This document shows positions 10,314 through 28,824 of a DNA stretch of 64,000 nucleotides, piece by piece. The position numbers were made by a program, and so were the translations under genes. This stretch comes from Paracoccaceae bacterium (GTDB lineage: Bacteria > Pseudomonadota > Alphaproteobacteria > Rhodobacterales > Rhodobacteraceae): positions 26,624 through 90,623 of the forward strand of contig PAQV01000051.1 of assembly GCA_002709405.1 (NCBI GenBank). The letters run 5' to 3'. Under the pieces are notes generated by a model. It had not been told where the DNA came from and made no database searches. It was given only the letters and a program-made list of their open reading frames with translations. Each line of letters starts with the position of its first letter. Within the stretch, counting starts at the first letter, position 1.

Positions 10314-11348
10314 GTGAACGCAACATCCAGGCTTACACTCACAACGGCCCTGACCGGTTTCGTATTGGCCGCGAGCGCGGCGAGCGCGCAGGACTTTTCC
10401 GGCCAGACCCTGGTCGTCGGCACCTGGGGCGGCGACATCGAACGCCTGCTCAAGGAACATGCGGCGGCCCCGCTGGAAGCGGCGACCGGTGCCAAGGTGG
10501 AATTCCTGCTGGGTGGCTCGGGCGACCGGATGGCCAAGATCTACGCCGAGCGCCAGAACCCGACGATGGATGTGACCTTCCAGAACATCTACGAGGCCCC
10601 GCAGCTGCTGGCCGATGACCTGGTGGTCGCCCCGGATCCCGAGCTCGACATGTACAAAAACGTCTGGGAAGGCATGAACGACGGCTGCTATGCCATGTCG
10701 CTTGTCGGCCTGGGCATCGCCTATTCCAAGGACCTGGTGTCGGAGCCCCCTGAATGGGCCGACATGTGGAACCCCGATTACAAGGGCATGATCGCCATGG
10801 CCCCCTATCCCTCGTCGGAAGGGGACGGGTTGCTGGGCGTGGCGGCCCGCCTCGAAGGGGCCGACGAGCATGACGCCGACGTGGCCTTTGCCAAGGTCGC
10901 CGAACTGGGCGAACCCGCCCTCACCTACACCTCGCTGGACGAGGTCTTTGCCCTGATGGAAGCCGGCGAAGTCGCCATGGCACCGATGATCTCGGGCTAC
11001 GTGCTGGCCGGTCTCAAGGAATTCCCGGGCATCGGCTTTTCCTTCCCCAGCGATCCCGGCCCGGTCCTGATCCGCGACATGGTCTGCCAGGTCAAGGACA
11101 GCCCGAACCCGGAACTGGCGCAGATGTTCATCGAATACGCGCTGTCGGCCGAGACCCAAAAGGCCTATGCCGAGGAAATCTACTTCGGCCCAACCAACTC
11201 CACCGTGGAGCTGTCTGAATCTGCCGCCGCAGACACGATCAACTCGCCCGAAGAGGTCGACAGCCTGCTGGCGCTCGATTGGCCCTGGCTGATCGAACAG
11301 CGCGCCGATTGGACCGAGCGCTGGAACAAGGACATCATGGGCCAGTAA
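10314..11348 (+). CDS. Extracellular solute-binding protein (PotD/PotF/iron-type family 1)
   Basis: GTG start, signal peptide LTGFVLAASAASAQ, TLVVGTWGGDIERLLKEHAAAPLEAATGAKVEF. Confidence 0.88.
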   Translation: MNATSRLTLTTALTGFVLAASAASAQDFSGQTLVVGTWGGDIERLLKEHAAAPLEAATGAKVEFLLGGSGDRMAKIYAERQNPTMDVTFQNIYEAPQLLADDLVVAPDPELDMYKNVWEGMNDGCYAMSLVGLGIAYSKDLVSEPPEWADMWNPDYKGMIAMAPYPSSEGDGLLGVAARLEGADEHDADVAFAKVAELGEPALTYTSLDEVFALMEAGEVAMAPMISGYVLAGLKEFPGIGFSFPSDPGPVLIRDMVCQVKDSPNPELAQMFIEYALSAETQKAYAEEIYFGPTNSTVELSESAAADTINSPEEVDSLLALDWPWLIEQRADWTERWNKDIMGQ

Positions 11349-11350
11349 CC

Positions 11351-12199
11351 TTGCTGACACGACGCAGCGCAGGCCTACTCGTTGCTCCGGCCGTCATCCT
11401 GACGGTCGGAGTTTTCGTTGCGCCCTTTCTCTTGCTGGTGGCGATGAGCATCTGGTCCCAGCCGACCGGCTCGCTGATCGTCGATCCGACGCCCACGATC
11501 AAGAACTACGCCCGCATCGCCGGGGACGGCTATTACATCCGCGGCTTGCTGCGCACCCTCTGGCTGAGCCTGGCCACCACCGCGCTGGCCGCCCTGCTGG
11601 CCCTGCCGCTGTCCTGGTGGATCGTGCGCCGCGCGGGGCGCTTCCGGGGCCTGATCCTGACGCTGGTGCTGATCCCCATGGTCTGCGGCGCGCTGCTGCC
11701 GACGCTGGGGCTGATGAACCTGCTGGGGCCATTGGGCGTGATCAACGGCACGCTGAAATCGCTGGGCCTGATCGACCGGTCGTGGAAGCTGCTGGGCAAC
11801 CAGACCGGCATCCTTATCGGCCTGGTGCATGCCTTCCTGCCGCTCATGGTACTGCCGCTGGTTTCGGCGCTCGACCGCCTGCCAAGGGACGTCGAAGGCG
11901 CGGCCATGTCGCTGGGCGCGAAACGCCTGCAGGTCTGGCGCCGGATCATCCTGCCGCTGTCGGCCCCCGGGCTGATCGCCGGATCGGCGCTGGTCTTCTG
12001 TGCCGCGCTGACCTCCTTCGTGACGCCGCTGCTGCTTGGCCAGGGCAAGGTCGCCACCTTCGCCACCATGGCCTATCAACAGGCCTCGCTCGTGCTCGAC
12101 TGGCCGTTTGCCTCGGCCCTGGCCATGGTCATGCTGGCCATCCTCGCCCTGATCGGCACCGCCGCCTGGGGCGCGCAGAAATGGGCGGCCGAGACATGA
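11351..12199 (+). CDS. ABC transporter permease (PotB-like)
   Basis: Probable TTG start; multi-TM, AMSLGAKRLQVWRRIILPLSAPGLIAG EAA motif. Confidence 0.88.
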   Translation: MLTRRSAGLLVAPAVILTVGVFVAPFLLLVAMSIWSQPTGSLIVDPTPTIKNYARIAGDGYYIRGLLRTLWLSLATTALAALLALPLSWWIVRRAGRFRGLILTLVLIPMVCGALLPTLGLMNLLGPLGVINGTLKSLGLIDRSWKLLGNQTGILIGLVHAFLPLMVLPLVSALDRLPRDVEGAAMSLGAKRLQVWRRIILPLSAPGLIAGSALVFCAALTSFVTPLLLGQGKVATFATMAYQQASLVLDWPFASALAMVMLAILALIGTAAWGAQKWAAET

Positions 12200-12981
12200 G
12201 GCTGAAGACCGTCCTCTGGGCCGCGATCACCTTCGCCGTGCTCGCCTATCTCATCGCCCCGATCGCCGTGCTGATCTATTCCGCCTTCGACGACGGCAAG
12301 TTCTTCCGCTTCCCCCCGCGCGAGCTGTCCCTGCGCTGGTTCCGCGAGGCGCTGGCCAGCCCCGAGTACCGCTCGGCCGTGCTGAACTCGACGATCCTCG
12401 CCACCATCGCCTCGGTGCTTTCGGTTGCCTTCGGCCTCATGGCCGCGCTTGGCCTGACCCGGGGACCGCTGCGGTCGCGGCCCATTGTCGAGATCCTGCT
12501 GCTGGCCCCTCTGACCCTGCCGCTTGTCGTCTGGGCCATCGCGCTCATGCAGATCTACGCGCGCCTTGGCCTCAGCGGGTCGGTCGGGGGGCTGATCCTT
12601 GCCCATACCATCATCACCCTGCCCCTTTCGGTGCGCATCCTCATGGCCACATTGTCCAATATCGATCCCAACCTCGAAGACGCCGCCCGCAGCCTTGGCG
12701 CCCGGCCCCTGCGCGCCTTTGCCCGCACGACGCTGCCGCTTGCCATGCCAGGCGTTCTGACCTCGGCTGCCTTCTGTTTCCTGATTTCCTTCAACGACGT
12801 GGTGGTCACCACCTTCATCGCCGGCGCCTCGTGGATGACATTCCCGGTGCGCATGTATTCCCAATTGCGCGGCCAGGGCGTCGACCCGATCACGCTTGCC
12901 ATCGGCGCGATGATCGTGGCGCTCATCCTCGTCATCGTCGCCCTGGGCGAGGCGCGCTTCAAATGGTCCCGCCGCCTATGA
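12196..12981 (+). CDS. ABC transporter permease (PotC-like)
   Basis: ARSLGARPLRAFARTTLPLAMPGVLT EAA motif; ATGA overlap with upstream gene. Confidence 0.9.
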   Translation: MRLKTVLWAAITFAVLAYLIAPIAVLIYSAFDDGKFFRFPPRELSLRWFREALASPEYRSAVLNSTILATIASVLSVAFGLMAALGLTRGPLRSRPIVEILLLAPLTLPLVVWAIALMQIYARLGLSGSVGGLILAHTIITLPLSVRILMATLSNIDPNLEDAARSLGARPLRAFARTTLPLAMPGVLTSAAFCFLISFNDVVVTTFIAGASWMTFPVRMYSQLRGQGVDPITLAIGAMIVALILVIVALGEARFKWSRRL

Positions 12982-14045
12982 CCTCTTACCTCAAGATCGA
13001 CGCCATCGGGAAATCCTACGGGACAACCCGCGTCCTGCACGACGTCAGGCTCGACGTCGCGCCTGGCGATTTCACCGTCCTCCTCGGCCCCTCGGGCTGT
13101 GGCAAATCCACCCTTTTGCGCATCATCGCGGGGCTGCTGGACAGCGACAGCGGCAAGCTGGTGCTGCAGGGCGACGACATCACCGCCCTGCCCGCCTGGG
13201 ACCGTGATATCGGGCTGGTCTTCCAGAACTACGCGCTGTTCCCGCATATGACAGTCGCCGAAAACGTCGCCTTCGGGCTCGACATGCGGAACCTGCCCAA
13301 GGCCGAGATCAAGGCCCGCGTGGCCGAAGCCCTCGACGCCGTCCGCCTAGGCGACCTGGGCGACCGCAAGCCCGCCGCCCTGTCGGGTGGCCAGCAGCAA
13401 CGCGTCGCCATCGCCCGCGCCATCGCCATCAAGCCGCGCCTTTTGCTGCTGGACGAACCGCTGTCGAACCTCGACGCTGTCCTGCGGGCCTCTGTCCGGA
13501 CCGAGCTGCGCGACCTGCACGACCGCACCGGCATCACCACGATCATGGTCACCCATGACCAGGCCGAGGCGCTGTCCATCGCCGACCGGGTGGTGCTGAT
13601 GAACGAGGGCCGCATCGTCCAGAACGACACGCCCGAAGGCATCTACCGCGAACCCGCCTCGGCCTTTGCCGCGTCCTTCCTGGGGTCCCCTCCGGCGAAC
13701 CTTTTCCCCCTGCCGACAGCCTCCGCCGCGCAGACCACCGGTTGGACACCCCCGCCGGCCGTGGCAGGCCATCTCGGCACCGATGCGCTCCTGGCACTCC
13801 GCCCCGAGGCGCTGAAACTGACTGAAGAGCCCACGCCCCACGCCCTGCCCGCGCATCTCAAGCGTATCGAGTTCCAGGGCGCCGACCGCCTCGCCCATGT
13901 CGAGGCCCTGGGCCACCCGCTGATCGTCCGCCTGAGCGACGACCAAACCCTGACGCGCCCGGATGTCTGGCTGACCCTGCCCGACACCCCGCGCGTCTTT
14001 TCCAAAACGACCGGGGCGCTGATTGCGCCCGCAACGAAAGGATAA
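12978..14045 (+). CDS. ABC transporter ATP-binding protein (PotA-like)
   Basis: [42 protein letters not shown]-like C-terminus. Confidence 0.95.
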   Translation: MTSYLKIDAIGKSYGTTRVLHDVRLDVAPGDFTVLLGPSGCGKSTLLRIIAGLLDSDSGKLVLQGDDITALPAWDRDIGLVFQNYALFPHMTVAENVAFGLDMRNLPKAEIKARVAEALDAVRLGDLGDRKPAALSGGQQQRVAIARAIAIKPRLLLLDEPLSNLDAVLRASVRTELRDLHDRTGITTIMVTHDQAEALSIADRVVLMNEGRIVQNDTPEGIYREPASAFAASFLGSPPANLFPLPTASAAQTTGWTPPPAVAGHLGTDALLALRPEALKLTEEPTPHALPAHLKRIEFQGADRLAHVEALGHPLIVRLSDDQTLTRPDVWLTLPDTPRVFSKTTGALIAPATKG

Positions 14046-14048
14046 CCC

Positions 14049-14813
14049 ATGGCTGACAGCAGCGATCTCTGGGCTAAGCGCAGCCCCAAGAAGCAGGTGG
14101 TGCGCGACCGCATCTGGCAGCAGCTGGAAGACACCGGCGTGGCCATAGGGCCGGCCAAGAACAACATCCCCAACTTTGCCGGCGCCGACATGGCCGCCTT
14201 CTACGTGTCGCAGACCGACGCCTGGAAGGCCGCGCAGACCGTCAAGTGCAACCCCGACCCGCCGCAGATCCCGATCCGCCTGCGCGCGCTTTATGCCGGC
14301 AAGACGCTATACTGCCCGGTGCCTGCGCTGACCCGGGACTTCCCCTATCTGAAGCTCGACCCGGCGAAGCTGGTCGAAAAGGGCATCAGCTTTGAACTCG
14401 CCGCGACTTCGGAAGGCTACATGATGCATGGTGAGCGCATCGGCTTCGAAGATGTCCCCGTGCTGGATTTCTCGATCGTCGGCTCGGTCGCCGTCACCCG
14501 CTCGGGCGGGCGCATCGGCAAGGGCGCGGGCTTTGCCGACCTGGAAACCGGCATCTTCCGCGAGATCGGCCGCATCCTGCCGGAAACGCCGATGGTGACC
14601 ATGGTCCATTCCTCGCAGATCGTCGACGAAGACCAGATGACCATGATGGCCCACGACAGCCCTCTGGACATGTTCGCCACCGAGCAGGAACTGGTCATCA
14701 CGAACAACGACACGCCCCGCCCGCGCGGCGTGGAATGGAGCGAGGTCCAGGAGGACCAGTTCCGCGACATCCCCTTCCTGGCCGCCCTGCGCGACCGCAT
14801 GACCACAGAATGA
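14049..14813 (+). CDS. 5-formyltetrahydrofolate cyclo-ligase (MTHFS/MTHFSD-like) family protein
   Basis: VGSVAVTRSGGRIGKGAGFADLE motif and C-terminal VTMVHSSQIVDEDQM; homology by eye. Confidence 0.7.
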   Translation: MADSSDLWAKRSPKKQVVRDRIWQQLEDTGVAIGPAKNNIPNFAGADMAAFYVSQTDAWKAAQTVKCNPDPPQIPIRLRALYAGKTLYCPVPALTRDFPYLKLDPAKLVEKGISFELAATSEGYMMHGERIGFEDVPVLDFSIVGSVAVTRSGGRIGKGAGFADLETGIFREIGRILPETPMVTMVHSSQIVDEDQMTMMAHDSPLDMFATEQELVITNNDTPRPRGVEWSEVQEDQFRDIPFLAALRDRMTTE

Positions 14814-14827
14814 AAGGAGCGTCCCCC

Positions 14828-15781
14828 ATGACCGACGCCACCCTCCCCGTCATCGACGTCTCGGGCCTGAATTCGCCCGACCTGGACACCCGCAAGGCCG
14901 TGGCCGCCGAGATCGGCCATGCCTGCGACACCTACGGGTTCTTCTACGTTTCGGGCCACGGCATCCCCGAGGAGGATATCCTCGCCACCGTCGAGGCGGC
15001 CCGCAGCTTCTTCACCCAGCCGCTGGAAAAGCGGATGGAGATCAAGTCCGGCGCCACCAACCGCGGCTACACGGCGCTGAAGGAATCCGAACACGAGGAC
15101 GGCAAGCCCGACGTGAACGAAGGCTTCGAGCTGGGCTTTCCCGTCCCGCCCGAGGACCCGGATTTCGACGGCAAGAACCCGGTCCGCGCGCCCAACCGCT
15201 GGCCGGACCTCGAAGGCTTCCGCGAGCCGGTGGAGAAGCATTACTTCGCCACGTTCGAACTGGGCATGACCATCCTGCGCGGCTTTGCCCTGCATTTCGG
15301 CCTGCCTGAGGATTTCTTCACGAAAACCTTCAAGCGCCCCGTGGCCGACATGCGCCTGGCCCATTACCCGCCGCAAACCGGTGAAGGCGTCGAATTCGGC
15401 ACCTTCGATCACACCGACCACGGCGTGATCACCATCCTCTGGCAGGACCATAACGGCGGACTGCAGGTGCAATCGCCCGAAGGAGACTGGCTGCCTGCCG
15501 CGCCGATCCCCGGCACCTTCGTCGTCAATATCGGCGACCTGATGAGCCATTGGACCAACAAGCGCTTCCGCTCGACCCTGCACCGGGTGATCAACCGCCC
15601 CGGAGTCGACCGCTACTCGATCCCGTTCTTCTTCAATCCCGATTTCGACACCCACGTCGACCCGTCCGACATCCCCGGCATTGCGGCGGATGCCGAGGTG
15701 CTGGAACCGGTGACCTCGGGCCCCTACCTGATCGGCCGGTTCTCGGACTACCGCCATTCGTGGAAGGAAGAAGACGCCTGA
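14828..15781 (+). CDS. Isopenicillin N synthase family 2-oxoglutarate/Fe(II) oxygenase
   Basis: CDTYGFFYVSGHGIP N-terminal motif, HTDHG (HxD) iron ligand, LHRVINRPGVDRYSIPFFFNPD. Confidence 0.92.
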   Translation: MTDATLPVIDVSGLNSPDLDTRKAVAAEIGHACDTYGFFYVSGHGIPEEDILATVEAARSFFTQPLEKRMEIKSGATNRGYTALKESEHEDGKPDVNEGFELGFPVPPEDPDFDGKNPVRAPNRWPDLEGFREPVEKHYFATFELGMTILRGFALHFGLPEDFFTKTFKRPVADMRLAHYPPQTGEGVEFGTFDHTDHGVITILWQDHNGGLQVQSPEGDWLPAAPIPGTFVVNIGDLMSHWTNKRFRSTLHRVINRPGVDRYSIPFFFNPDFDTHVDPSDIPGIAADAEVLEPVTSGPYLIGRFSDYRHSWKEEDA

Positions 15782-16527: not shown

Positions 16528-18291
16528 TCACGTGTCGGGCTGCAGCCTTTGCACGGCCAGCAAGGTGATGTCATCGGCCTGCGACGCGCCGTCGGAGAAG
16601 CCGGCAATGCCCGACAAGATCCCCTCGACCAGGGCCTGCGGGTCTGTGCGCCCGAAGGCGGCGGCCATGTCGGAGGCGCGGGCGTCGCCCAGAAGCTCTC
16701 CGGCCGGGTTCTGGGCCTCGTCGAACCCGTCGCTGTAGATCAGCAGGGTCTCATCACGGGCGATCGCGATCTCGGCCGGTTGGAAGGGGTAGTCGTCGAA
16801 CGCGCCCAGGACGATGTTGTTGGGAGGTGTGACATGCCGCGCCTTGTGGTCCGGCGTGATGAGGAACGGCTGGCAATGGCCGCAGTTCACGCATTGCCCC
16901 TGCCCTGTCGCCGGATCGAGCAGCGCCAGGAACATGGAAATGAACAGATCCTCGGTATTGCCGTCGCACAGGGCATCGTTGGTGGCCGAGACGATGTCGG
17001 CCGCGTCGGTGTAACGCCCGGCATTGGCCCGCAGCATCATCGCCGCCCGCGCCGCGAACAGCGCCGGCCCGATGCCCTTGCCGGACACATCGGCGATGAG
17101 GATGGCGATGCGGCCGTCCTGCATTTCAAAGAGATCGAAGAAATCGCCCCCGACCTCTTCGGCCGGGATCATTGCGCCGAACAGAGACAACCGGGGCGAC
17201 AGGTCGAAATCCGAGGGCACCAGCGATTGCTGCACGTTGCGCGCCGCGGCCAGCTGGGTGTCGAGCTTCAGCAGCCGGTCGCGGGCCTCCTGCCCGGCGC
17301 GGACCCGTTCGACGGTGTCGATCAGGGCCTGGATCTCGTCCGATGTCTGCATCGGCTTCAGCGTCAGGGTCGTGGCCCCCTCGGCCATCTGCTGCAACAG
17401 GCGCACCACCGCGCCGAGCGGGCGAAAGGACACGCGCAGCACGTGCATCAGCAGGCCCAAGGTCAGCATGATCGCCAGGATCAGCATGACCGCCGCCGTG
17501 CTGCCGTAGATGAAATGCCGCTGGCTGGAGGCGGTGACGTCGCGCAGGCTGACGAACTCGGCCAGCAGATCGCCCTGGTCGTCGCGCATCGGGATCGCCA
17601 GGGCCAGGTAGCGCCGCCCGTCCTCGCCGAACCCGACGCTGCGCGCCGCGCCGGCACAGCAGCCGTCGGTCAGCGTTGAAAACCCCTCGGGCACTGGCCC
17701 GGTCGTCCTGACCGTCCCATCGACCGAGATCACGCCAAGGGCCGAGGCCCCGCGCAGGAAACGGCGCGCGCGGTCGACCAGGTCGAGGGACGCCACCACC
17801 TGCCCGGTGACGCGGTTGCCCTGGCGCACCGGTTCGACGGCCGCCAGCCGCAGGTCGCCGGCAGCACCCAGGCCCAGGCCGTTCACGGCCACATCGCCCT
17901 CCGCCGGCCCCACGGCCGCCATGCCAAGCCGCGCCACGACGGTGCCATCGTCGGCCAGCACCGTGACCCCAAGGGCTGCGCCGGTGGCATCGACGGCCGC
18001 CGCGACCATGTCCTGCAATTCTGCCATGGCGGCGGGATCCGTTCCGCCCAGAACCGCGTCCACCGCAGGCTGGTTCGCCAGGTCAGAGGCGATCCGGCGC
18101 AGCAGGGCCGCGTCCAGGTCGGTGACCGTGGTCAGCAATTCCTGCGCGCTGGCCAGCTGGTCGGCGGCATGGCGGTCGCGCAGCAGCGTCGCCCGCCCTT
18201 CGGCATATAGCAGCATGATCGCCGTGACACTCAGCAGCGCCGCCGACACGATCAGCGCCACGTGGCCGCGCAGCGAGTTCGTCTTCAGCAT
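16528..18291 (-). CDS. SpoIIE/PP2C-family serine phosphatase with N-terminal TM sensor and HAMP
   Basis: Two TM segments flanking a periplasmic domain, linker, then LAAARNVQQSLVPSDFDLSPRLSLFGAMIPAEEVGGDFFDLF...IADVSGKGIGPALFAARAAMMLR...DETLLIYSDGFDEAQN (RsbU/SpoIIE motifs). Confidence 0.93.
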   Translation of the reverse strand: MLKTNSLRGHVALIVSAALLSVTAIMLLYAEGRATLLRDRHAADQLASAQELLTTVTDLDAALLRRIASDLANQPAVDAVLGGTDPAAMAELQDMVAAAVDATGAALGVTVLADDGTVVARLGMAAVGPAEGDVAVNGLGLGAAGDLRLAAVEPVRQGNRVTGQVVASLDLVDRARRFLRGASALGVISVDGTVRTTGPVPEGFSTLTDGCCAGAARSVGFGEDGRRYLALAIPMRDDQGDLLAEFVSLRDVTASSQRHFIYGSTAAVMLILAIMLTLGLLMHVLRVSFRPLGAVVRLLQQMAEGATTLTLKPMQTSDEIQALIDTVERVRAGQEARDRLLKLDTQLAAARNVQQSLVPSDFDLSPRLSLFGAMIPAEEVGGDFFDLFEMQDGRIAILIADVSGKGIGPALFAARAAMMLRANAGRYTDAADIVSATNDALCDGNTEDLFISMFLALLDPATGQGQCVNCGHCQPFLITPDHKARHVTPPNNIVLGAFDDYPFQPAEIAIARDETLLIYSDGFDEAQNPAGELLGDARASDMAAAFGRTDPQALVEGILSGIAGFSDGASQADDITLLAVQRLQPDT

Positions 18292-18971
18292 GCCTCGGCC
18301 TGACCATAGACCAGCGCGGGACCGTCGCGTTCGACCGCCCGGCCCTTCCAGCCTGCCGCCAGCAGGGCACGGTGCGGCTCCAGCCCGCCTTGGGGCGGCA
18401 GGGGTTCGCGTTGCAGGGCCTCTTTGGTCTGGCACCAGCCGCGCGCGGGCCGTTCGACGATGAACCGATGCTGGCCGTAGTAGCTGTAATCATGGCTGAC
18501 CACGGCGAGACCAGCAGCCAGCAGGTTGCGCAACGACCCGTGGTTCCAGGGCGACACAAAGGCCTTGCCGGCCGTGAACCCCGCATCGAACAGGGCGGCC
18601 AGCCGCAGGTCGATGACCCGGCGCTGCCAGCCCATGCCCCGGATGCCGGCGCGCAGGGCGGTGCCGAACAGCAGCCCCTTGTCCGGTTCGTCCGCGAACA
18701 GCCCCGCCATCCGCGCCGCCGGTCCCGCGACCGTGTAGCCCTGTGCCCGGCCGTCGACCCGGATCAGCATCAGCACCGCGCCCAGCCCGTGGATCCTGGC
18801 AAAGAACGCCTCGTCCTGGCGGCCATAGACATCTTCGCCGGTATAGGCCACGGCCTCGGAGTTGATGTCCGACAGCTCGGCGAAATCGGCCGGCCCTGCG
18901 ATGGTGACGAAGCTGTCCGGCGGCAACTGCAGATCCGCGATCCGCGCGCGCAGGGCCTCTTCCAGTTGCAT
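18285..18971 (-). CDS. GNAT-like protein of unknown function
   Basis: Overlaps both neighbours; region GFTAGKAFVSPWNHGSLRNLLAAGLAVVSHDYSYYGQHRFIVERP resembles a GNAT acetyl-CoA site; weak. Confidence 0.5.
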   Translation of the reverse strand: MQLEEALRARIADLQLPPDSFVTIAGPADFAELSDINSEAVAYTGEDVYGRQDEAFFARIHGLGAVLMLIRVDGRAQGYTVAGPAARMAGLFADEPDKGLLFGTALRAGIRGMGWQRRVIDLRLAALFDAGFTAGKAFVSPWNHGSLRNLLAAGLAVVSHDYSYYGQHRFIVERPARGWCQTKEALQREPLPPQGGLEPHRALLAAGWKGRAVERDGPALVYGQAEAC

Positions 18972-20002
18972 TACGGCGTGCCCTCCATGATCTCGGCGTA
19001 ATCCATCAGCGACATGGCCGGCAGGATGCCCAGCCGCTGCGCCACGTCCAGCCGCACCCGGTAGGAAAAGCTGGGCAGGGTTTCGACCGGGATCGCGCCC
19101 GGATCAACGCCGTCAAACAGCACCGCCTCGGCCTTCTGGGCGGCAAAGCGGCCGACGTCGTAATAGGGCGCCACCAGGCCATAAAGCGCATCCGACGAGG
19201 TCAGCGAGCGTTCGGTCGAGGCGAAGGTGGCCAGCCCCGCGGCATTGGCGGCATCGGCGACCTCAGCGGCATATTCGCCCAGGAAGGAATCCGGCCCGAG
19301 GTACAGGAACTGCGGGCCCGCCGCCGCCGCCTCGGCCACCAGTTCGGGGATGGAGGCCGGATCGGGCTGGCCGTCAGCATCCAGCGGCACGGTGTAGGTG
19401 TCGATCCGCAGGCCATAGCGTTCGCCCACGGCTTTCAGCTCGGCCACCGCCTGCGCGGAATTCGGCTCGGCATCGGTGTAGATTGTGGCGATCCGGTCGA
19501 CGGGCATGTAGGCCTGCATCGCCTGCACCTGGGTTTCCATCGGCACAACATGGCTGACCCCGGTGACATTGCGGTGACTGAGGCGGGTGTCATCCACGAC
19601 GCCGGATAGCACAGGCTGCGACACCATCGAGAACACGATCGGCAGGTCGGTGACCTGGGGCGGGTAGGCCTCGCCCTGGGCCAGGTCGGGATCGGCACCG
19701 GCAATGCCCAGGGTGACCGGCGTGCCCCAGGTGTAGACCAGGTCCGGTTGCGCGGCTTTGATGCGGGCGACGATCTCGGGCAGCCGGGCGGTGTCACGGT
19801 CGACCGAGACGACCTCGTAGGTGACCGGCAGGCCCTTTTCGCTGAAATAGCCTCGGAATCCCTGTTCCACCGCCGTTTCGCCCCGCCACAGCACCATGAA
19901 GATGCTTTTGCCGTCCTGCGCGACAGCGACCGGCGGAGCCAGCAGCAGCGCGAGTGCCGCCGCGGCGCGGACCAGGGATCTAGGTTTTGACAAGCAGTGC
20001 AT
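18971..20002 (-). CDS. ABC_sub_bind (TrpX/YtrX-like) periplasmic substrate-binding protein
   Basis: Signal peptide ALALLLAPPVAVAQ, LPIVFSMVSQPVLSGVV, IATIYTDAEPNSAQAVAELKAVGERYG typical of ABC_sub_bind family. Confidence 0.85.
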   Translation of the reverse strand: MHCLSKPRSLVRAAAALALLLAPPVAVAQDGKSIFMVLWRGETAVEQGFRGYFSEKGLPVTYEVVSVDRDTARLPEIVARIKAAQPDLVYTWGTPVTLGIAGADPDLAQGEAYPPQVTDLPIVFSMVSQPVLSGVVDDTRLSHRNVTGVSHVVPMETQVQAMQAYMPVDRIATIYTDAEPNSAQAVAELKAVGERYGLRIDTYTVPLDADGQPDPASIPELVAEAAAAGPQFLYLGPDSFLGEYAAEVADAANAAGLATFASTERSLTSSDALYGLVAPYYDVGRFAAQKAEAVLFDGVDPGAIPVETLPSFSYRVRLDVAQRLGILPAMSLMDYAEIMEGTP

Positions 20003-22076
20003 CGATGGCCTCTTCTTCGTCGCGCTCGCCGACGATCAGGAAACAGGTACTGGCCAGCCCAGCCAGCAGAACAGCCGCAAGGCCGAGCACCAGCAAGGAC
20101 TGGACGGGGCTGAAAAACACCAGAAGCGCCGCACCGATGACCGGCCCCGCAAGCGAGCCCAGCCGTTCCATGAAGCGGTACTGGCCGATGACGGTCGCGG
20201 TGCCGAAGCGCTCCTGTTCATGGCGGGTGAGCCGCAGAAGGAAGCTCATCTGAGAGGGCACGGACATCGCCTGCCCCGCCGCGAAAACGGCCACGCAGAG
20301 GACAAGCGCCCAGGGCAGCCCGATCAGCGCCGGCAGGGCCAGGGCAAAGGCCGACAGGATCGTGCCCACGCAGACGACCGGCGCGACAAGGCTCCAGCGG
20401 TCCACGGCGCGGGCTATCCAGGCCGCGCTGCACAGCACGACGACGCCGTAGATCATGAACAGCTGGCCTGCCGCCGCCGCCCCGCCGCCCGCCGCGACCA
20501 CGGCCAGGGGAAGGCACAGGAACAGCCCGCCGTTCAGCAACAGTTTCGACGGCAGGGCCATGCCCGCGATCAGGGCCAGGTAGCGCCGGTTGGCCAGGAT
20601 GACGCCCAGGGGCTGCAACTGCGCCCGGACCCCGGGGCGCGGCGGTTTTGGCAGCGGTTGCTCGGACGGCAGGATACCCAGGGTGGTGACAAAGGACAGC
20701 ACCAGCGCCGAGGCGGCCATGACAAAGGCCGCGTCCGCGCCTAGCCGGTCGGCCAGGATGCCTCCAATGGCGGGCCCGGCGATATCGGCCCCCACCACGG
20801 CGATGAAGAACAGCGAAAACCCGGACGTGCGCCGGGACTGGTCGGAATGTTCGACGATATAGACCTGCGCCGCGGCGTAGACGATGCCATAGCCAAGCCC
20901 CGCGACGCCCCGAAACAGCGCCGCCTGCCAGACCGTGGCCACCAGAACGTGGCCCAGCGTGCCAAGCGCGCTGACGGCCACGCCTAGCAGGATGACGTGT
21001 TTCACCCGGCTGCGGTTGCAGAACTGCGCGCCCAGGACGATGCCCAGCAGAGAGGCCAGCAGGAAGGCCGACATCGCCAGGCCCACCTGGATATCCGGCG
21101 AGGGCGCGCCCTGCGCGGGGGCGATCCCCTTCAGGAACAGCGGCAACGAGGGCCGCAGGATCGCCTCGGACAGGAAGAACAGGATCAGCGGCAGGCGGAT
21201 CAGGTAGGCGGCGGGCCCGCGCCAGAGCGTGGGTTGGCCGGTCTCTGGCAGGGTCAGCCCCGGCACCGCGCCGTTTGCGGAGGCCCGGGAAATCGCGTTG
21301 CGGATGAAGCGGTTGGTCTGCCGGATCAGCTCTGCCGTGCCGAAGAGGCCCGAGGCGCGGGCTGTGTGGCGCAGGTCCCCGTCGGCCAGCCGGTCGCCCA
21401 GGTACCAGATCGCGGTCAGCGGGCGCAGCAGGCTGACCCCGGCGATCAGAAGCAGGCATTCGAAGCCCAGAAGCATGGCGGCGGCAAAGACGATCAGCAT
21501 GTTCAGCGACAGGTCCCGCCGCAGCGCGTCAAGCTGGGCCGTATCGGTGCCAAGGTAGACGTACCCCGCAGGCGCGGCGGCGTCGCCGATGGGCTGCCGA
21601 GTGATCAGGTACGTGCCGGAGAGGTAGCTGCCAGACACCCTTTCGGCCGTCTCGATCCCGGCAAAGCGGTGAAAGACCGCGTTGACCCGGTCCTCGATCG
21701 TGGCGCGTAGGCCGGGACGGGCGTCTTCTTGCGGTCCGTCGATCAGCTTCTGGAACCGGGCGATGGTCCGTGGCGTCTGGGCGATCACCTCGCCGCCGAC
21801 ATCCACGACCGCGATAAAGCTGGTTTCGGGGGAATTCTTTGCGGCATTGTCCAGCACGTCGTCCACGTCGCGCAGGGCCGACAGAGACCCGAACAGCCGC
21901 AGCCCCAGGGCCAGGCGGCGTTCAATACCGCTGGCGACGACCTCGGCGCGCTCTTCGTATTGCGGAAGAAGGGCCTGTTCGTAGATCCCGAAGGTATAGA
22001 CGCCGAACAGCAGGAAGGGCGCCAGGATCGCGGCAACCAGGGCCGACCCGCCGATCCACGCCATGAGGCGGCTCAT
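19980..22076 (-). CDS. MFS transporter with N-terminal Cache-like sensor and HAMP-like linker
   Basis: TM + ~150-aa extracytoplasmic segment + TM + LLRPLTAIWYLGDRLADGDL (HAMP-like), then ~12-TM MFS region. Confidence 0.85.
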   Translation of the reverse strand: MSRLMAWIGGSALVAAILAPFLLFGVYTFGIYEQALLPQYEERAEVVASGIERRLALGLRLFGSLSALRDVDDVLDNAAKNSPETSFIAVVDVGGEVIAQTPRTIARFQKLIDGPQEDARPGLRATIEDRVNAVFHRFAGIETAERVSGSYLSGTYLITRQPIGDAAAPAGYVYLGTDTAQLDALRRDLSLNMLIVFAAAMLLGFECLLLIAGVSLLRPLTAIWYLGDRLADGDLRHTARASGLFGTAELIRQTNRFIRNAISRASANGAVPGLTLPETGQPTLWRGPAAYLIRLPLILFFLSEAILRPSLPLFLKGIAPAQGAPSPDIQVGLAMSAFLLASLLGIVLGAQFCNRSRVKHVILLGVAVSALGTLGHVLVATVWQAALFRGVAGLGYGIVYAAAQVYIVEHSDQSRRTSGFSLFFIAVVGADIAGPAIGGILADRLGADAAFVMAASALVLSFVTTLGILPSEQPLPKPPRPGVRAQLQPLGVILANRRYLALIAGMALPSKLLLNGGLFLCLPLAVVAAGGGAAAAGQLFMIYGVVVLCSAAWIARAVDRWSLVAPVVCVGTILSAFALALPALIGLPWALVLCVAVFAAGQAMSVPSQMSFLLRLTRHEQERFGTATVIGQYRFMERLGSLAGPVIGAALLVFFSPVQSLLVLGLAAVLLAGLASTCFLIVGERDEEEAIDALLVKT

Positions 22077-23311
22077 GATCCGGTCTCCGCCGTGCTGCGC
22101 CCCAACCGGGCCGAGATCGCGGCCGCGGCATGCACGAGCGCCCCGTCGGATCTGGCGACCGGCGCGTCGGTGCCATCGGCCAGGTCATGCATGACATCAG
22201 CCATGTGATGAAACCGCCGGTGCAAGGGCACCGCCACCATCAGCGCGATCAGGGCGATGATGGGCAACGAAATCAGCGCGATCAGAGGGGCGACAATGGC
22301 AATATCCCGGCGCAGAGTGGCGGTGGCTTCGAACAGCGACCGGGACGGAAAGACCAGCACCAGGGTGCCGATGGGGGCCGTGTCGAGGGTCAGGGGCATG
22401 CCGGTCAGGAAGACGTCCTCGTCCGGGGCCTGGGCATGCCACAGCGTGTCCGCATCGCCCGGCAGCGCGGCCACGGCCGAGGGCAAGGGCCCCGCCCCGG
22501 TGCTGGCATGGACAACCTGCCCGTCCGGACCGGTGACATAATACCGGATTTCGCCTTCGCGCAGCTGGGCGCGGCGGTTGATGGCGATCTGCACGGCCAG
22601 GTTGGAGGACAGCGACAGCCCGGCACCGAAACTGCTTTCGATGGTGTCGCCAAGTTCCCGGGCGACGGAATCGTAGCGGATCTGCGCCGCGTGCTGGATT
22701 TCGCGTTCCAGCCGCAGCACGTTCAGCCCAGCGGCCAGGACCAGACTGAGCGTCAGGATCAGGCCCAGCGGCAACAGGAAGCGCAGGAGGAACGGCAACA
22801 GCACGGGCCTGCGCGCGGTGCGGGTGCTGGTCGGCTTGGGCGGATTGTCCGCCTTTGTTGCGTTCGGTGCGTTGTCGGGGGCGATGCGGAACAGAAGCGT
22901 CAGGCGGTTCACGCCACCGTCGCGGTCATAGGTCTGCCGGTCGGACAGCTTGCGCACCAGGTGAAGACCCAGGCCGCCGATCGCCCGGTCTTCGACCTCC
23001 AGGTCCAGGTCCGGCTCGGCGCTGTTGTCCAGCGGGTTGAAGGCAGTGCCGTCATCCTCGACCACAAGGGTCACGGCGCTTTCCGAGCCTTGAAGCGACA
23101 GCCGCACCTCTCCGGGCGCGTCGGCATAGGCGTGATGGGCGAGGTTGAGGAACAGCTCTTCTGCGGCCAGTTCGACGCGCGAAGCGATCGCGGGGGGCAC
23201 ATCGGCCAGGACACCAGAAGCCTGCACCCAGGACAGGACCCGTGACAGCTGGCCTTCCTCGGCCGGCAGGACAAGATCCGAACGCCCCGGGCCGTCGGCC
23301 GTATCAGACAT
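22073..23311 (-). CDS. RsbW/SpoIIAB-like HATPase (anti-sigma-type kinase) with C-terminal TM sensor region
   Basis: VELAAEELFLNLAHHAY (N box), VEDDGTAFNPL (G1), GGLGLHLVRKLSD (G2); followed by two TM segments with a periplasmic loop. Confidence 0.88.
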   Translation of the reverse strand: MSDTADGPGRSDLVLPAEEGQLSRVLSWVQASGVLADVPPAIASRVELAAEELFLNLAHHAYADAPGEVRLSLQGSESAVTLVVEDDGTAFNPLDNSAEPDLDLEVEDRAIGGLGLHLVRKLSDRQTYDRDGGVNRLTLLFRIAPDNAPNATKADNPPKPTSTRTARRPVLLPFLLRFLLPLGLILTLSLVLAAGLNVLRLEREIQHAAQIRYDSVARELGDTIESSFGAGLSLSSNLAVQIAINRRAQLREGEIRYYVTGPDGQVVHASTGAGPLPSAVAALPGDADTLWHAQAPDEDVFLTGMPLTLDTAPIGTLVLVFPSRSLFEATATLRRDIAIVAPLIALISLPIIALIALMVAVPLHRRFHHMADVMHDLADGTDAPVARSDGALVHAAAAISARLGRSTAETGS

Positions 23312-23380
23312 GGCCCTTGCGCGCCCCCGGCCGGGGCTTTGTCATCACGCCGGGGGTAAACCGGCAGGGCAGAGCACCGG

Positions 23381-23734
23381 TCATGCGCCGTCCCCGGACG
23401 CGGCCAGCAGGGATGCGATGGCCTCGGCGCTGCTGGCGTGGATCTCAAGAACGGACGAGAAGCCACTGATATCGAAGACTTCCTGCACCTGAGGCGCCAA
23501 CCCCGCAAGGGCCAGCCGCGCGCCGGACGCCCGGGCGGACTTGGCGGCCTTCAGCACGACGCGCAAGCCGGCAGAGGACACGTAGTCCACCTGCGCCAGA
23601 TCCAGAACAAGGGCCGGAACCCCGGTCAGCCGGCCCAGGATCGCGGTTTCGGCCTCGGCCGCGGTTGTGCCGTCGATCCGGCCGTCGATTGCCGTCACCG
23701 CAATCTCGGCTTCTGTGTATTCCTTGATGTCCAT
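23381..23734 (-). CDS. STAS domain anti-anti-sigma-type protein
   Basis: PALVLDLAQVDYVSSAGLRVVLKAAKSARASGARLALAGL; SSAGLRV contains the phosphorylatable Ser. Confidence 0.93.
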   Translation of the reverse strand: MDIKEYTEAEIAVTAIDGRIDGTTAAEAETAILGRLTGVPALVLDLAQVDYVSSAGLRVVLKAAKSARASGARLALAGLAPQVQEVFDISGFSSVLEIHASSAEAIASLLAASGDGA

Positions 23735-24015: not shown

Positions 24016-25362
24016 TCATCGGAACTGCAGATGTTCGTAGATGATGCGTTCCGGCGGCACACCCAGGTCCAGGAATTGTTTCACCAGGTCATCGACAAAG
24101 GGCGTCGAGCCGCACAGCATGACGGCGAAATCGTCCAGCTCGACATCCTCCATGATCTGCTTGGCGCTCAGCCGGCCGCGGTCGGCCGTGGTCCACTGGA
24201 CGTAGTCGATATAGGAATCCGCCTCCAGGAAGCGCTCGCGGATCTCTTCGTCATAGACGGCGTCCTCGGGGGTGCGGGTGATGTAGTAGAACCAGATCCG
24301 CCGGAAATCGTCGTTCGACTGTTCGAATTCCAGCATGCCCAGGAAGGGCGTGATGCCGATCCCCGCTCCGATCCAGACCATCCGCCGGTAAGGCGCGAAA
24401 TGGGATTGGGTGAAGCCTCCGAAACTGCCAAAGACCTCGACCTCGTCACCCGGGGTCAAGCCATTCACGGCCTTGGTGAAATCCCCAACCTGGCGGATCG
24501 AGAACCGCAGGTCGCGCTTCACCGGCGAGCCGGAAATCGAGAACGGGTGCAATTCGGCGGAATGGTCGGCAAGCGTCGGCGTGCGCAGGAAGGCGAAGGT
24601 GCCCGGCTGGTACATCATCCGCCGGTCGCGGGGCCGCAGTTCCAGGTCGACCACCCCAGACCCGCGCTGCACGACTCGCTGCACGGTATAGAGGAACCGG
24701 GGCCCGAAACTGCGAAAGAGCAGCACGCGATAGGTCCAGGCCAGGGTGCCCGAGAGCAGCAGGATCACGATCCAGGTGCGCAGGGGCTCAAAGAACTTGA
24801 TCGTGCCCGGCTCGATCGAGGCATGGGCCGTACCCAGCAGGAACAGCACGCCGATCATCCGGTGCAGGTTCAGCCACAGCTCGTGCCGCATCCGCTTGAC
24901 GTAGGCCAGCACGCCCAGCCCGGCCAGCAGGTAGAACACCGCGATGTCGATGGTCCGGGCCCCCGGCCAGAAGGGCACCAGCATGATCGCCGCCGAGTCC
25001 CCCACCTGTATGGCATGCAGGCACAGCAGCACCACGTGCAGACCCATCAGCAGCATCGCCGCCAGCCCCAACCGCTTGTGCAGGCGCACGCCGTTGTCGA
25101 GGCCGCCGATCAGCGGTTCCAGCGCCTGGGCCCGGGACACCACGACGATGGCCAGCGCGGCGCAGGTGAAGGACCACAGCATCACCACCTGCGAGGGCGC
25201 GAGCCAGGGCCAGAGCGTGCCGCCGAAGCCGATCGAAAAGCGCCCGATCATCCACAGCACCGTCGTCACCACCAGGCAGCCGCCGATCAGCAGCCAGGGT
25301 TTCTGCGTGCGAGTCAGAAGGTCAGAGGGAGGTGTATCGCTGCTTGGGGACGTGACGGACAT
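24016..25362 (-). CDS. Ferric-reductase-like transmembrane flavoprotein (FAD/NAD(P)H oxidoreductase)
   Basis: Multi-TM heme-type N-terminus, then MYQPGTFAFLR, HPFSISG, IGAGIGITPFLGMLE, VMLCGSTPFVDDL (FNR module). Confidence 0.88.
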   Translation of the reverse strand: MSVTSPSSDTPPSDLLTRTQKPWLLIGGCLVVTTVLWMIGRFSIGFGGTLWPWLAPSQVVMLWSFTCAALAIVVVSRAQALEPLIGGLDNGVRLHKRLGLAAMLLMGLHVVLLCLHAIQVGDSAAIMLVPFWPGARTIDIAVFYLLAGLGVLAYVKRMRHELWLNLHRMIGVLFLLGTAHASIEPGTIKFFEPLRTWIVILLLSGTLAWTYRVLLFRSFGPRFLYTVQRVVQRGSGVVDLELRPRDRRMMYQPGTFAFLRTPTLADHSAELHPFSISGSPVKRDLRFSIRQVGDFTKAVNGLTPGDEVEVFGSFGGFTQSHFAPYRRMVWIGAGIGITPFLGMLEFEQSNDDFRRIWFYYITRTPEDAVYDEEIRERFLEADSYIDYVQWTTADRGRLSAKQIMEDVELDDFAVMLCGSTPFVDDLVKQFLDLGVPPERIIYEHLQFR

Positions 25363-25587
25363 GCCGGTATGAATCCTTGGGGCGGGACAGATCCAAGCCT
25401 ATGGGTCCGCGCCACGAAGTCCATACAGTATCACGTTTTATTGCGCCCCGGGCCGTGCCAACCGGCCCGGGCGCGGGCCTGGAATCACTTCGATGCCCGA
25501 AAAAGAACCACAACCGGAGCCCGCCCGGCGCATGGGGCAATCCCCGCGCCGAACCGGGACACAGCCGGTGCGGCACGGGGACAAGGG

Positions 25588-26691
25588 TCAGTCCAGCTTG
25601 GGCATCGCGTCTGAATAGATCCGGGCGGCCATGGCGTCACGGTCACCGCCCAGCTCGTCGACGATCCCTTCCCACTTCAGCAGAAGCGCCTTGTAGGTGG
25701 TCAGGAGCTCTTCGGCGTTTTCGATGCCGCGCTGGTAGGCCAAGTCAAGCATCCGCTGGGACTCGGTTTCGGCAAAGGCATCGAAGGCGGCGGTCAGGTC
25801 ACCCGCCGGCTCGATCACCGCCAGGTCGTGCGTGCCGGCGCCGGCAAGGGCCTCGTCATCCTCGGCCGCGAATTCCAGGGCCACGTCGACAGCGGCCAGG
25901 GCACCTTCCTTGAAGAAGGCGGTCTGCTGGTCTGCTGTCAGGTCGCGCCAGCTGCGCATGTTCATGTTGATCGGAATGCCGCCGGCGAAAGTGCCGATGT
26001 TCATGTCGCTGACGTCGCTGACCACATCATAAAGCGACATCTGGATCAGCCAGGCGGTATTGCCCGCGACACAATCCAGCTGCCCCCGTTCAAGGCCCTC
26101 GTAGGCTTCGGGCACGGTCATGTTGACGGCCGTGCCGCCCGCGGCATTGACCCAGCTGGCCCAGCTGCCAAGCGAGCGGACTCGCAGGCCAGCCATGTCG
26201 TCGGCGGATTCGACCGGCTTGTTGCACATCAGCTTGTAGGGGGGCGTGGCGTGGTAGGCGATCGGCATGATCCCCTGCTCTTCCATTTCGTCCAGGCAGG
26301 CCGGGCAGTTCTGGAAGATCATCTCGTTATAGGCCCCGGCGCCCACCAGGGCGTCGCGCACCAGGATAGAGCCTTCGGACAGCCAGGCCGAGGTCCGCAA
26401 CTCGCCCGGGTGATAGCTGGTCGCCAGCAGGCCCATGTCGGCCACGCCGTCGCGGATCGTCTGCAGCGTGTTCCGCCCGCCGGACACGGTGCCGTCGGTG
26501 AAGACCTGGAACGTGATCTCGCCATCGGTGTCCGCCGTCACACGGTCGAAGAACGGGGTCAGCGACTTGGTGTGCAGCGTGCTGTTGCCGGGGAACCAGC
26601 TGGAATAGGACAGCTTGGTTTCGGCCGCGACGACATGCGGGGCCAGGGCCAGGGCCAGCACGCCCGTGGCAATCTTGAACTTCGCTTTCAT
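25588..26691 (-). CDS. TRAP transporter substrate-binding protein (DctP family)
   Basis: Signal peptide; ESADDMAGLRVRSLGSWASWVNAAGGTAVNMTVPEAYEGLERGQLDC. Confidence 0.93.
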   Translation of the reverse strand: MKAKFKIATGVLALALAPHVVAAETKLSYSSWFPGNSTLHTKSLTPFFDRVTADTDGEITFQVFTDGTVSGGRNTLQTIRDGVADMGLLATSYHPGELRTSAWLSEGSILVRDALVGAGAYNEMIFQNCPACLDEMEEQGIMPIAYHATPPYKLMCNKPVESADDMAGLRVRSLGSWASWVNAAGGTAVNMTVPEAYEGLERGQLDCVAGNTAWLIQMSLYDVVSDVSDMNIGTFAGGIPINMNMRSWRDLTADQQTAFFKEGALAAVDVALEFAAEDDEALAGAGTHDLAVIEPAGDLTAAFDAFAETESQRMLDLAYQRGIENAEELLTTYKALLLKWEGIVDELGGDRDAMAARIYSDAMPKLD

Positions 26692-26769
26692 GGTATCCTC
26701 CCTGAGAAAGCCGTTATTTCGGGTTGTCCCTGCCCGGCCGCGCCACAAAGGCCTCGGCCGGGCGGGCGG

Positions 26770-28077
26770 TCATTGCATCGACAGCGGGATCAGCAGGCTG
26801 ATCTGCGGGAAGGCCACCAGCAGGCCGACGATCAGCACCTCGGCCGCAAGGAACCAGGTCAGGCCCTTGAAGATGGTGCCAAGCTGAACGGCATCCCCGA
26901 TGACCCCGCGCACCACGTAGGCGTTCAGGCCGACCGGCGGGGTGATCAGGCTGATCTCGATGAACTTGACGGTCAGCACGCCGACCCAGATCAGGTTCAG
27001 GTCGGCCGCCTCGAAGAAGGGCAGGAAAATCGGGATCGTCAGCAGCAGCAGGCCCATCGGATCCAGGAACATGCCCAGCACCAGGTAGATGCCCCCGATC
27101 ATGGCCAGCAGCAAAAGCGGGTCGTAGGCGAAATTGTCGGCCAGCCCGCTCATGAACTGGGGCACGCCAGCAAAGGTCAGGAAGCGCGAGAACAGGGTCG
27201 CCCCGATGGCGATGTAGAAGATCGTGCCGGTTGAGCGCAGCGTGTCGACGATGCTGTCGAACATCACCTTCGGGGACATGCTGCCCCGGAAGACGGCGAT
27301 AACGATGGCCGCGAAGGCGCCGAACCCCGCCGCCTCGGTGGCGGTGGCAAAGCCCGCGTACATCGACCCAACGACGGCCAGGATCAAAAGCGGCAGGGGC
27401 GCAATGTCGCGCAGGGCGCTGATCCGGTCGGCCCAGGTGACCTCTTCGGTGATGGCGGGCGCCAGGTCGGGATTGTAACGGCAGCGCAGGATGATCATCG
27501 CCCCGTAGACGAAGGCGGTCAGCAGGCCGGGCAGGATGCCGGCCAGCAGCAGCATGCCGATCGACTGGCCGGTGAACATGCCGTAAAGCACAAAGAGGAT
27601 GCTGGGCGGGATCATCGTGCCGATGGTCCCCGAAGCCGCGACAACGGCCGTGGCCAGCGACGGCGCATAGCCGTAGCGCAGCATCTCGGGCACGGCCAGG
27701 CGCGACATGGCGGCCGCCGTGGCCAGGCTGGACCCGGACGCGGCCGAGAACCCGGCGGAGGCGTAATTCGTGGCCACCGCCAGCCCGCCCGGAAGCCGGC
27801 TGAGCCACAGCCGGGCGCAATCGAAGAGGCCCTTGGTCAGCCCGCTGTGAAAGGCCACCGCCCCCATCAGCAGGAACATCGGGATGGCCGACAGCTCCCA
27901 CTTGGCGACGATCTCGAACACCATGCTGCGGGCGACGCCGACGGTCGCGCGCTCGCCCATGATCGTGTAGATGCCGCCCAGCGACACGACGCCCAGGGCC
28001 ACGCCGATCGGGACACGCACGGCCAACAGGGCCAGCAGCACGCCCATGGCCGAGAAACCGATTTCCAGGTTGCTCAT
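26770..28077 (-). CDS. TRAP transporter large permease (DctM family)
   Basis: ASAGFSAASGSSLATAAAMSRLAVPEM and IPPSILFVLYG motifs. Confidence 0.95.
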   Translation of the reverse strand: MSNLEIGFSAMGVLLALLAVRVPIGVALGVVSLGGIYTIMGERATVGVARSMVFEIVAKWELSAIPMFLLMGAVAFHSGLTKGLFDCARLWLSRLPGGLAVATNYASAGFSAASGSSLATAAAMSRLAVPEMLRYGYAPSLATAVVAASGTIGTMIPPSILFVLYGMFTGQSIGMLLLAGILPGLLTAFVYGAMIILRCRYNPDLAPAITEEVTWADRISALRDIAPLPLLILAVVGSMYAGFATATEAAGFGAFAAIVIAVFRGSMSPKVMFDSIVDTLRSTGTIFYIAIGATLFSRFLTFAGVPQFMSGLADNFAYDPLLLLAMIGGIYLVLGMFLDPMGLLLLTIPIFLPFFEAADLNLIWVGVLTVKFIEISLITPPVGLNAYVVRGVIGDAVQLGTIFKGLTWFLAAEVLIVGLLVAFPQISLLIPLSMQ

Positions 28078-28568
28078 GTCCGGCCGTCTTTCCGGCCGCG
28101 CAGGTGGGCAGCGGCATAGCCGAGCGAGGCCAGGGCGATGATGGCCAGCCCCACGACGGCGACCCAGCGGCTGGGCCAGATCGGCACGTCGAACCCGCGC
28201 ACGGGCAGCATCTCGTCGTACTTGAAGGCCGAGCGCGCCTCGAGCCAGCCGGCATAGGCCAGAAAGCCCGCATAGCCCGCCCCCAGAAGGGCCGCCAGCC
28301 CATCGACGATGGACACGGTACGGCGCGACGCCCAGCCCAGGAACACCTCGACCACCACCTGTTCGTTCAGCAGCGCCACGATGGCCAGCCCGGCGAAGAC
28401 CGCGCAGACCATGTAGTAGAACGAGACGAATTCAAGCGTACCGGGGATCGTGATGCCGAAGGCCGACCGCAGGATCACCTCGAGCGTGATGTGCAGCATC
28501 ATGATGATCATCGCGGCGCCGCCAAGGACCACCAGAAGACGCCGGAGAAAGGTGAAGACCACCGTCAT
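28074..28568 (-). CDS. TRAP transporter small permease (DctQ family)
   Basis: Four-TM; EVILRSAFGITIPGTLEFVSFYYMVCAV; overlaps DctM. Confidence 0.88.
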   Translation of the reverse strand: MTVVFTFLRRLLVVLGGAAMIIMMLHITLEVILRSAFGITIPGTLEFVSFYYMVCAVFAGLAIVALLNEQVVVEVFLGWASRRTVSIVDGLAALLGAGYAGFLAYAGWLEARSAFKYDEMLPVRGFDVPIWPSRWVAVVGLAIIALASLGYAAAHLRGRKDGRT

Positions 28569-28801
28569 GACGCCGAGACACCGGCTTGCCTGCAACCCTG
28601 GTTCATCTGTTCCTCCTCCGGCGGGGCCTGTGCTGGCCCCCAAGCTTCCCGATGCACCGCCACGGATCTGAATGGGCCCCCTGCCTCCCACGGCGCTGGC
28701 CCGTCCGACGACGGTGATCTCCTCCCGATGTCCGGTGCCGATCCGTGACCGGACACCGTGCTCCCATTGACGGGTAGCAAAATCGAGAGGTCCTTTCAAC
28801 A

Positions 28802-28824
28802 TTTTTAGTGCAATGTACTAAAAA
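28802..28824. promoter_or_regulatory. Palindromic operator-like site TTTTTAGTGCAATGTACTAAAAA upstream of TRAP operon
   Basis: Perfect 8-bp arms (tttttagt/actaaaaa), partially symmetric centre; same architecture as 42247-42269. Confidence 0.6.

Follow-up and report, generated by a model that had tools for sequence, protein, structure and literature searches.

A six-gene partner-switch operon with a sensor-bearing MFS protein and an orphan binding protein in a Paracoccaceae bacterium

The window analysed here is a 64,000-nt stretch of contig PAQV01000051.1 of a Paracoccaceae bacterium (GCA_002709405.1; genome G000 and contig C51 in our sampling). Within it, six minus-strand genes form one operon (16528-23734) for a STAS protein, an RsbW-type kinase, a sensor-bearing major facilitator superfamily (MFS) protein, a periplasmic binding protein (SBP), a GNAT-like protein, and a membrane phosphatase. 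From the sequences and structural models, we think it likely that this operon is a membrane-gated partner switch controlled by a periplasmic ligand, with an output that is non-sigma or lies at a distance. Many Gram-negative partner switches have no known input or output, and their signals usually arrive through soluble sensors or response regulators. In the window operon, by contrast, the genes for the input stand alongside the switch genes: an SBP, three membrane sensors, and a transporter. The kinase too is predicted to be transmembrane. Because the same core occurs with partner switches, cyclases, type VI secretion systems (T6SS), and a type III secretion system (T3SS), identifying a single ligand might clarify many regulatory loci of this class that now lack annotation.

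Gene content and the switch proteins

Open reading frame (ORF) positions confirmed the six genes where the initial annotation had placed them, and Pfam/NCBIfam scans assigned domains to all but the GNAT-like protein. The first (23381..23734, 117 aa) encodes the STAS anti-anti-sigma-type protein, which is RsbV/SpoIIAA-like (Pfam STAS, 1.8e-17; TIGR00377, ant_ant_sig, above cut-off). It is followed by an RsbW/SpoIIAB-type HATPase (22073..23311, 412 aa; HATPase_c_2, 3.3e-23), in which the catalytic domain (residues 1-145) is fused to a sensor (residues 170-400) made of a transmembrane (TM) helix, a periplasmic PAS/Cache-like domain, and a second TM helix. The third gene (19980..22076, 698 aa; MFS_1, 4.1e-32) encodes the sensor-MFS protein, a TM-PAS/Cache-like-TM-HAMP-like arrangement continuing into a 12-helix MFS domain. 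The last three encode the SBP of the ABC_sub_bind (TrpX-like) family (18971..20002; 1.1e-22), a divergent GNAT-like protein with an acyl-CoA-type motif (18285..18971, 228 aa), and the phosphatase, with a TM-flanked periplasmic sensor, HAMP, and a SpoIIE/PP2C domain (16528..18291, 587 aa; SpoIIE, 4.3e-42). A gap of 69 nt separates the STAS and HATPase genes, and the last five genes overlap successively by 4, 23, 1, and 7 nt, within the range of about 1-23 bp first reported. We placed the SpoIIE start at the ATG at 18291, from which the close homologue in locus L001 also aligns; a GTG start at 18435 (635 aa) would overlap the GNAT gene by 151 bp and finds no support in that homologue. A longer STAS ORF (125 aa) was likewise set aside, as homologues support the shorter start.

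By Pfam matches and active-site motifs, the partner-switch gene set (STAS, RsbW-type kinase, PP2C phosphatase) is complete and its catalytic residues are intact, which bears out the original assignment. The predicted phospho-acceptor is Ser54 in VSSAGL, two residues before a conserved Gly, and the Ser is retained in all 14 linked STAS proteins; in alignment with SpoIIAA and RsbV, it corresponds to Ser58 and Ser56, respectively. The kinase keeps its N, G1, and G2 boxes (AAEELFLNLAHHAY, EDDGTAFNP, and GGLGLHLVRKLSD). In its AlphaFold2 (AF2) model (pLDDT 83.6), the best Foldseek matches are SpoIIAB (1til) and RsbW (6m37) for the N-terminus and the sensor domains of 3cwf, WalK/YycG, and PctD for the periplasmic part. 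The HATPase domain lies N-terminal, ahead of the first of two predicted TM segments (178-196 and 343-361). In the phosphatase, the metal-binding Asp motifs of PP2C (DVSGKG, SDG, and DDIT) are intact, and the sensor is flanked by two TM helices. The phosphatase-type sensor of a relative (L079) was called as dCache_3 plus HAMP; there it is joined to a class III cyclase and the phosphatase is absent, indicating that this sensor is an interchangeable input. Together, the TM predictions, the kinase model, and the domain call in this relative support the earlier proposal that kinase and phosphatase each carry a sensor of their own.

In the mechanism that we infer, the SBP would catch a small molecule in the periplasm and, once loaded, dock on the periplasmic sensors. 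Its occupancy would be read by the PAS/Cache-like sensors on the kinase, the MFS protein, and the phosphatase, which probably sit in one membrane complex. The signal would shift the balance between the kinase, which would phosphorylate Ser54 of STAS, and the phosphatase, which would remove the phosphate, and the ratio of phosphorylated to unphosphorylated STAS would set the output. Unphosphorylated STAS may then bind another partner, either a target that is not a sigma factor or a sigma factor with its anti-sigma factor, encoded elsewhere in the genome. The MFS protein is probably a working exporter-type transporter with its activity tied to sensing; the molecule that is transported or sensed is probably produced or altered by the GNAT.

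A conserved core with varying outputs

The locus-level search for relatives yielded one close relative, and wider sampling came from genome searches. In this relative, Pseudooceanicola sp. HF7 (L001), all six proteins are 62-78% identical and stand in the same order, and other genera, with identities of about 30-60%, retain this order. Because the order persists in both, we judge the association of these sequences to be far beyond chance. Sensor-MFS relatives of ~40% identity occur in four genomes of the same family (G104, G196, G029, and G157), where the operon is complete or partial; other members of the family have more distant relatives. The neighbourhood is thus conserved beyond close strains, in several genera of the family. 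Of 386 genomes sampled from the class, 36 contained a match to the sensor-MFS profile; a sample of 399 genomes from the phylum gave 13, six of which lie outside the class. The laboratory strain Azospirillum brasilense Sp7 (L117) carries a copy with a GNAT.

We tallied linked genes at 52 loci, leaving out two with a plain MFS protein lacking a sensor (L095 and L101); two plasmid matches (H7 and H8) were ordinary MFS transporters and were dropped. The loci were chosen by the MFS protein alone, so the linkage of other genes was not built in. An SBP gene lies within 6 kb of the sensor-MFS gene in 52/52 loci, overlapping it or within 50 bp in 43 and on the same strand in 47. The small sensor is separate or fused to the kinase in 31 loci and elsewhere is fused to the MFS protein. 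SpoIIE occurs in 21, RsbW in 15, STAS in 14, and all three in 13 of the 52, these linked-gene counts being lower bounds (19-kb fetches, contig ends) from profiles trained within the same 52-locus set. Compared with only two SpoIIE genes in the whole of the window's own genome, the presence of switch genes at 13-21 of the 52 loci favors the partner-switch reading.

The partner switch described in the initial annotation is present in the window, but the constant core is the small PAS/Cache-like sensor, the sensor-MFS protein, and the orphan SBP, while the outputs vary. This core occurs with class III cyclases in some loci and lies inside or beside T6SS clusters with VgrG and ClpV in several distant genomes (L035 and L119-L122). 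One locus (L092) combines T6SS VgrG with a partner switch, and in a single case a GNAT/SBP/sensor-MFS/SpoIIE operon (L077:7124-13016) adjoins the T3SS genes SctU, SctR, and SctQ. On a tree of the 52 MFS domains, the output label required 13 changes compared with 26 when labels were shuffled. Outputs are thus inherited, yet they have been swapped on several occasions around an unchanged core.

Several observations weigh against the reading that we prefer. SpoIIE is missing from the surroundings of 31 of the 52 loci, so a partner switch is dispensable for the core. The fusion of the RsbW domain to the small sensor, which characterizes the window's branch, is confined to that one branch of Rhodobacterales, and RsbW is a separate protein in most loci. 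In L032, the kinase-sensor fusion is joined further to the MFS protein, the G1 box of the fused HATPase is gone, and a separate intact RsbW is encoded upstream, so the fused HATPase may not always be an active kinase. In hhalign comparisons on alignments sharing no members, the homology of the small sensor and the MFS sensor (99%) speaks for our reading, but the phosphatase sensor has only a weak likeness to either one (about 94%). The original proposal of a ligand-sensing, non-sigma switch coupled to transport survives in part: the switch set, the sensors, and the lack of a linked sigma factor agree with it, but the coupling to transport is conjectural.

Two variants of these parts were seen along the way. 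In four loci, a second sensor set adjoins the first (L079:3258-8095, L080:11314-16163, L081:12359-17299, and L085:12797-17210), consisting of a small sensor and a sensor protein with a reduced or absent MFS part; a sensor-phosphatase or sensor-cyclase comes next. In another (L087:13798-15630), a weak and probably degenerate domain of the class III cyclase type precedes the RsbW-type HATPase to which it is fused.

The transporter, the binding protein, and the candidate ligand

The AF2 model of the sensor-MFS protein (pLDDT 84.5) shows a long helix, a PAS/Cache-like sheet, a second long helix, HAMP-like helices, and 12 MFS helices. These parts agree with its earlier description as a Cache/HAMP-MFS fusion, except that the Pfam scan called no Cache domain in the kinase or the sensor-MFS protein; the PAS/Cache-like fold comes from the models. 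The best Foldseek matches of the MFS part are MdfA, VMAT2, NorA, and SPNS2. GPAIGG at residues 434-439, in TM5, fits motif C, which tends to be found in antiporters; in the alignment, its first and third Gly are present in 52/54 and 54/54 rows, and the Pro is present in only 19. An Arg in TM4 and RxxER in TM11 are also strongly conserved. With transport motifs kept and an exporter-like fold, the MFS part appears to be a working transporter of the exporter type rather than an inactive receptor, and the protein would be a transporter as well as a sensor. The label of "transporter-like sensor" accordingly gives only half the picture.

The window GNAT had no Pfam or NCBIfam match of its own. Still, we take the ORF to be a real gene because it is 63% identical in L001, and because a relative that occupies this place in the operon of L037 (genome G087) scores above the Acetyltransf_1 cut-off and also matches Acetyltransf_9. 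The window protein contains RGMGWQ, comparable to the acyl-CoA-binding motif (Q/R)xxGx(G/A), and the profile of its 14-member family matches GNAT structures weakly (1.2e-4). Strong members of this family were found in the 386 genomes only at loci of the sensor-MFS type, most of them being rows of the model itself. GNAT relatives at other sites (L146-L150) have unrelated neighbours, which gave no hint of function.

This family is present in 15 of the 52 loci, and other enzymes stand in or at the operon elsewhere. They include other GNATs in the operon line (L073 and L076), a D-Ala-D-Ala-ligase-like (Dala_Dala-type) ATP-grasp protein at 11 loci, another ATP-grasp protein (L079 and L080), alanine racemase (L037 and L087), a PanB-like protein (L074 and L075), formyltransferase (L078; convergent in L081), a GCS2 ligase (L092), and TauD (L099 and L100). 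In two loci, the SBP gene is flanked by two different ATP-grasp genes (L083:3521-6664 and L084:11104-14245). Overall, most loci outside T6SS clusters carry a small-molecule enzyme, and the T6SS-linked copies other than L092 carry none. Most of these enzymes could act on amino-acid-like compounds, and the co-occurrence of enzymes, an exporter-like MFS protein, and an SBP suggests that the sensed molecule may be self-made.

This raises the alternative that the enzyme, here the GNAT, makes an amino-acid-like signal, the sensor-MFS protein exports it, and the SBP and sensors read its level outside. The switch would then report density, diffusion, or export, much as in quorum sensing but with a partner switch as the output. 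Such a circuit would fit an MFS part nearest to exporters, enzymes at most non-T6SS loci, and a GNAT family hardly seen elsewhere in the sampled genomes. However, T6SS-linked and some other copies lack an enzyme, the differing enzyme types leave a single class of signal unproven, and motif C is an antiporter tendency that does not prove the direction of transport. We regard this circuit as unlikely, if the best placed of the alternatives.

The SBP bears a signal-peptide-like N-terminus, and its profile matches 6hni, 3lkv, and 3lft. No ABC permease or ATPase gene was found in the scan of the six-gene operon, in agreement with its description as an orphan binding protein, and its constant partner in the 52 loci is the MFS protein. 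The SBP and MFS protein could instead import an exogenous amino-acid-like compound, which the GNAT would modify inside the cell while the sensors report its presence, comparable to UhpC or PgtP/PgtC. The SBP family does include TrpX-like amino-acid binders, and TRAP genes lie near the window operon and adjoin the operon in L031, a proximity that may be due to chance because TRAP genes are common in the family. Yet the MFS protein resembles an exporter rather than a symporter, and to our knowledge, SBP-dependent MFS importers are no established class. Nutrient uptake thus also seems improbable to us, ranking second among the alternatives.

We are more doubtful of a broader version of the signaling idea, in which a widespread modular system joins an enzyme-made, amino-acid-derived signal, export by the sensor-MFS protein, and readout by the SBP and paralogous sensors to exchangeable outputs. 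Those outputs would be the partner switch, class III cyclases, and secretion clusters, and the window version would be one that fuses the RsbW kinase to a sensor. The least probable alternative is a sensor of envelope stress or secretion state that monitors the periplasm or peptidoglycan, tunes genes for secretion or stress, and uses the MFS protein to move a cell-wall-related compound: the T6SS-linked copies, the copy beside sctU, sctR, and sctQ, and the D-Ala-D-Ala-ligase-like and alanine racemase neighbours speak for it, but the window operon has no secretion genes nearby and its enzyme is a GNAT.

Known systems, sigma factors, and neighbouring genes

The STAS phospho-Ser motif, RsbW-fold kinase, and PP2C phosphatase are shared with RsbU/RsbV/RsbW and SpoIIE/SpoIIAA/SpoIIAB. 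Unlike in those switches, the window kinase is predicted to be membrane-anchored via its own periplasmic sensor, the sigma factor gene is absent, and the sensor-MFS protein, SBP, and GNAT are added. In UhpC and PgtP/PgtC-PgtB, an MFS protein paired with a sensor or binding protein controls a regulator through a histidine kinase and response regulator. The six operon proteins had no histidine kinase or response regulator match in Pfam or NCBIfam; a predicted serine kinase/phosphatase pair is present instead, and the MFS protein itself bears the periplasmic sensor. Systems of the LuxPQ type have a periplasmic receptor with an SBP fold read by a membrane sensor, as proposed here, but the SBP family, the kinase chemistry, and the exporter-like MFS protein set the window operon apart.

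The nearest described systems are RbaVWY and SiaABCD. In Rhodobacter capsulatus, RbaV and RbaW are a STAS protein and a HATPase without a linked sigma factor, RbaY is a REC-PP2C protein, and the output of RbaV is unresolved (PMC3999984). The likeness to our operon lies in the order (Rhodobacterales), the missing linked sigma factor, and a STAS-centred output; by contrast, RbaVWY has a REC-PP2C phosphatase, a soluble RbaW, and no transporter, SBP, or membrane sensor, whereas the window phosphatase and kinase are predicted membrane proteins. SiaABCD of Pseudomonas aeruginosa combines a membrane HAMP-PP2C phosphatase, a kinase, and a STAS-like protein, as in the window, with a non-sigma output, the diguanylate cyclase SiaD (PMC7647112). 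It differs in lacking an MFS protein and an SBP, and its kinase, SiaB, is not described as bearing a membrane sensor. None of the six operon proteins gave a GGDEF match in Pfam or NCBIfam, so an output of the SiaD type is absent. A review of STAS proteins makes no mention of MFS (PMC8256260), and our search of open-licence papers found the combined gene set described nowhere, consistent with the initial view that this is not a named system. The switch chemistry is known, and the sensing and transport core with its exchangeable outputs appears to be undescribed.

As first proposed, the operon contains no sigma factor, and a search of contig C51 for sigma70 region 2 gave no match. Among the 15 genomes with a partner switch, only G029 had a sigma factor within the fetched locus; there (L032:14907-16162), the genes for a sigma70-region-2 protein and an adjacent 219-aa protein are convergent to the operon. 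The domains of 81 genes neighbouring partner-switch loci were also scanned, and the first 25 families listed included no further partner that recurs. In its 5.4 Mb, the window's own genome encodes 11 sigma-factor candidates, two SpoIIE proteins, and two clear kinases of the RsbW type. Its other clear RsbW/STAS pair is on contig C56, and its other SpoIIE protein is an RbaY-like REC-PP2C protein on contig C35, so a separate Rba-like switch is present and cross-talk is possible.

Around the operon, plus-strand ABC transporter permease and ATPase genes, followed by 5-FTHF cyclo-ligase-like and 2OG-Fe(II) oxygenase genes, run convergent to it (11279-15781). In L001, a xanthine/uracil-permease-family gene (L001:4830-6626) lies between the STAS and kinase genes and overlaps the latter. 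The TRAP transporter genes (DctP, DctM, and DctQ; 24019-28802, minus strand) lie near the window operon behind a ferric-reductase-like gene, and in L031 they come directly after the operon (L031:3476-6681).

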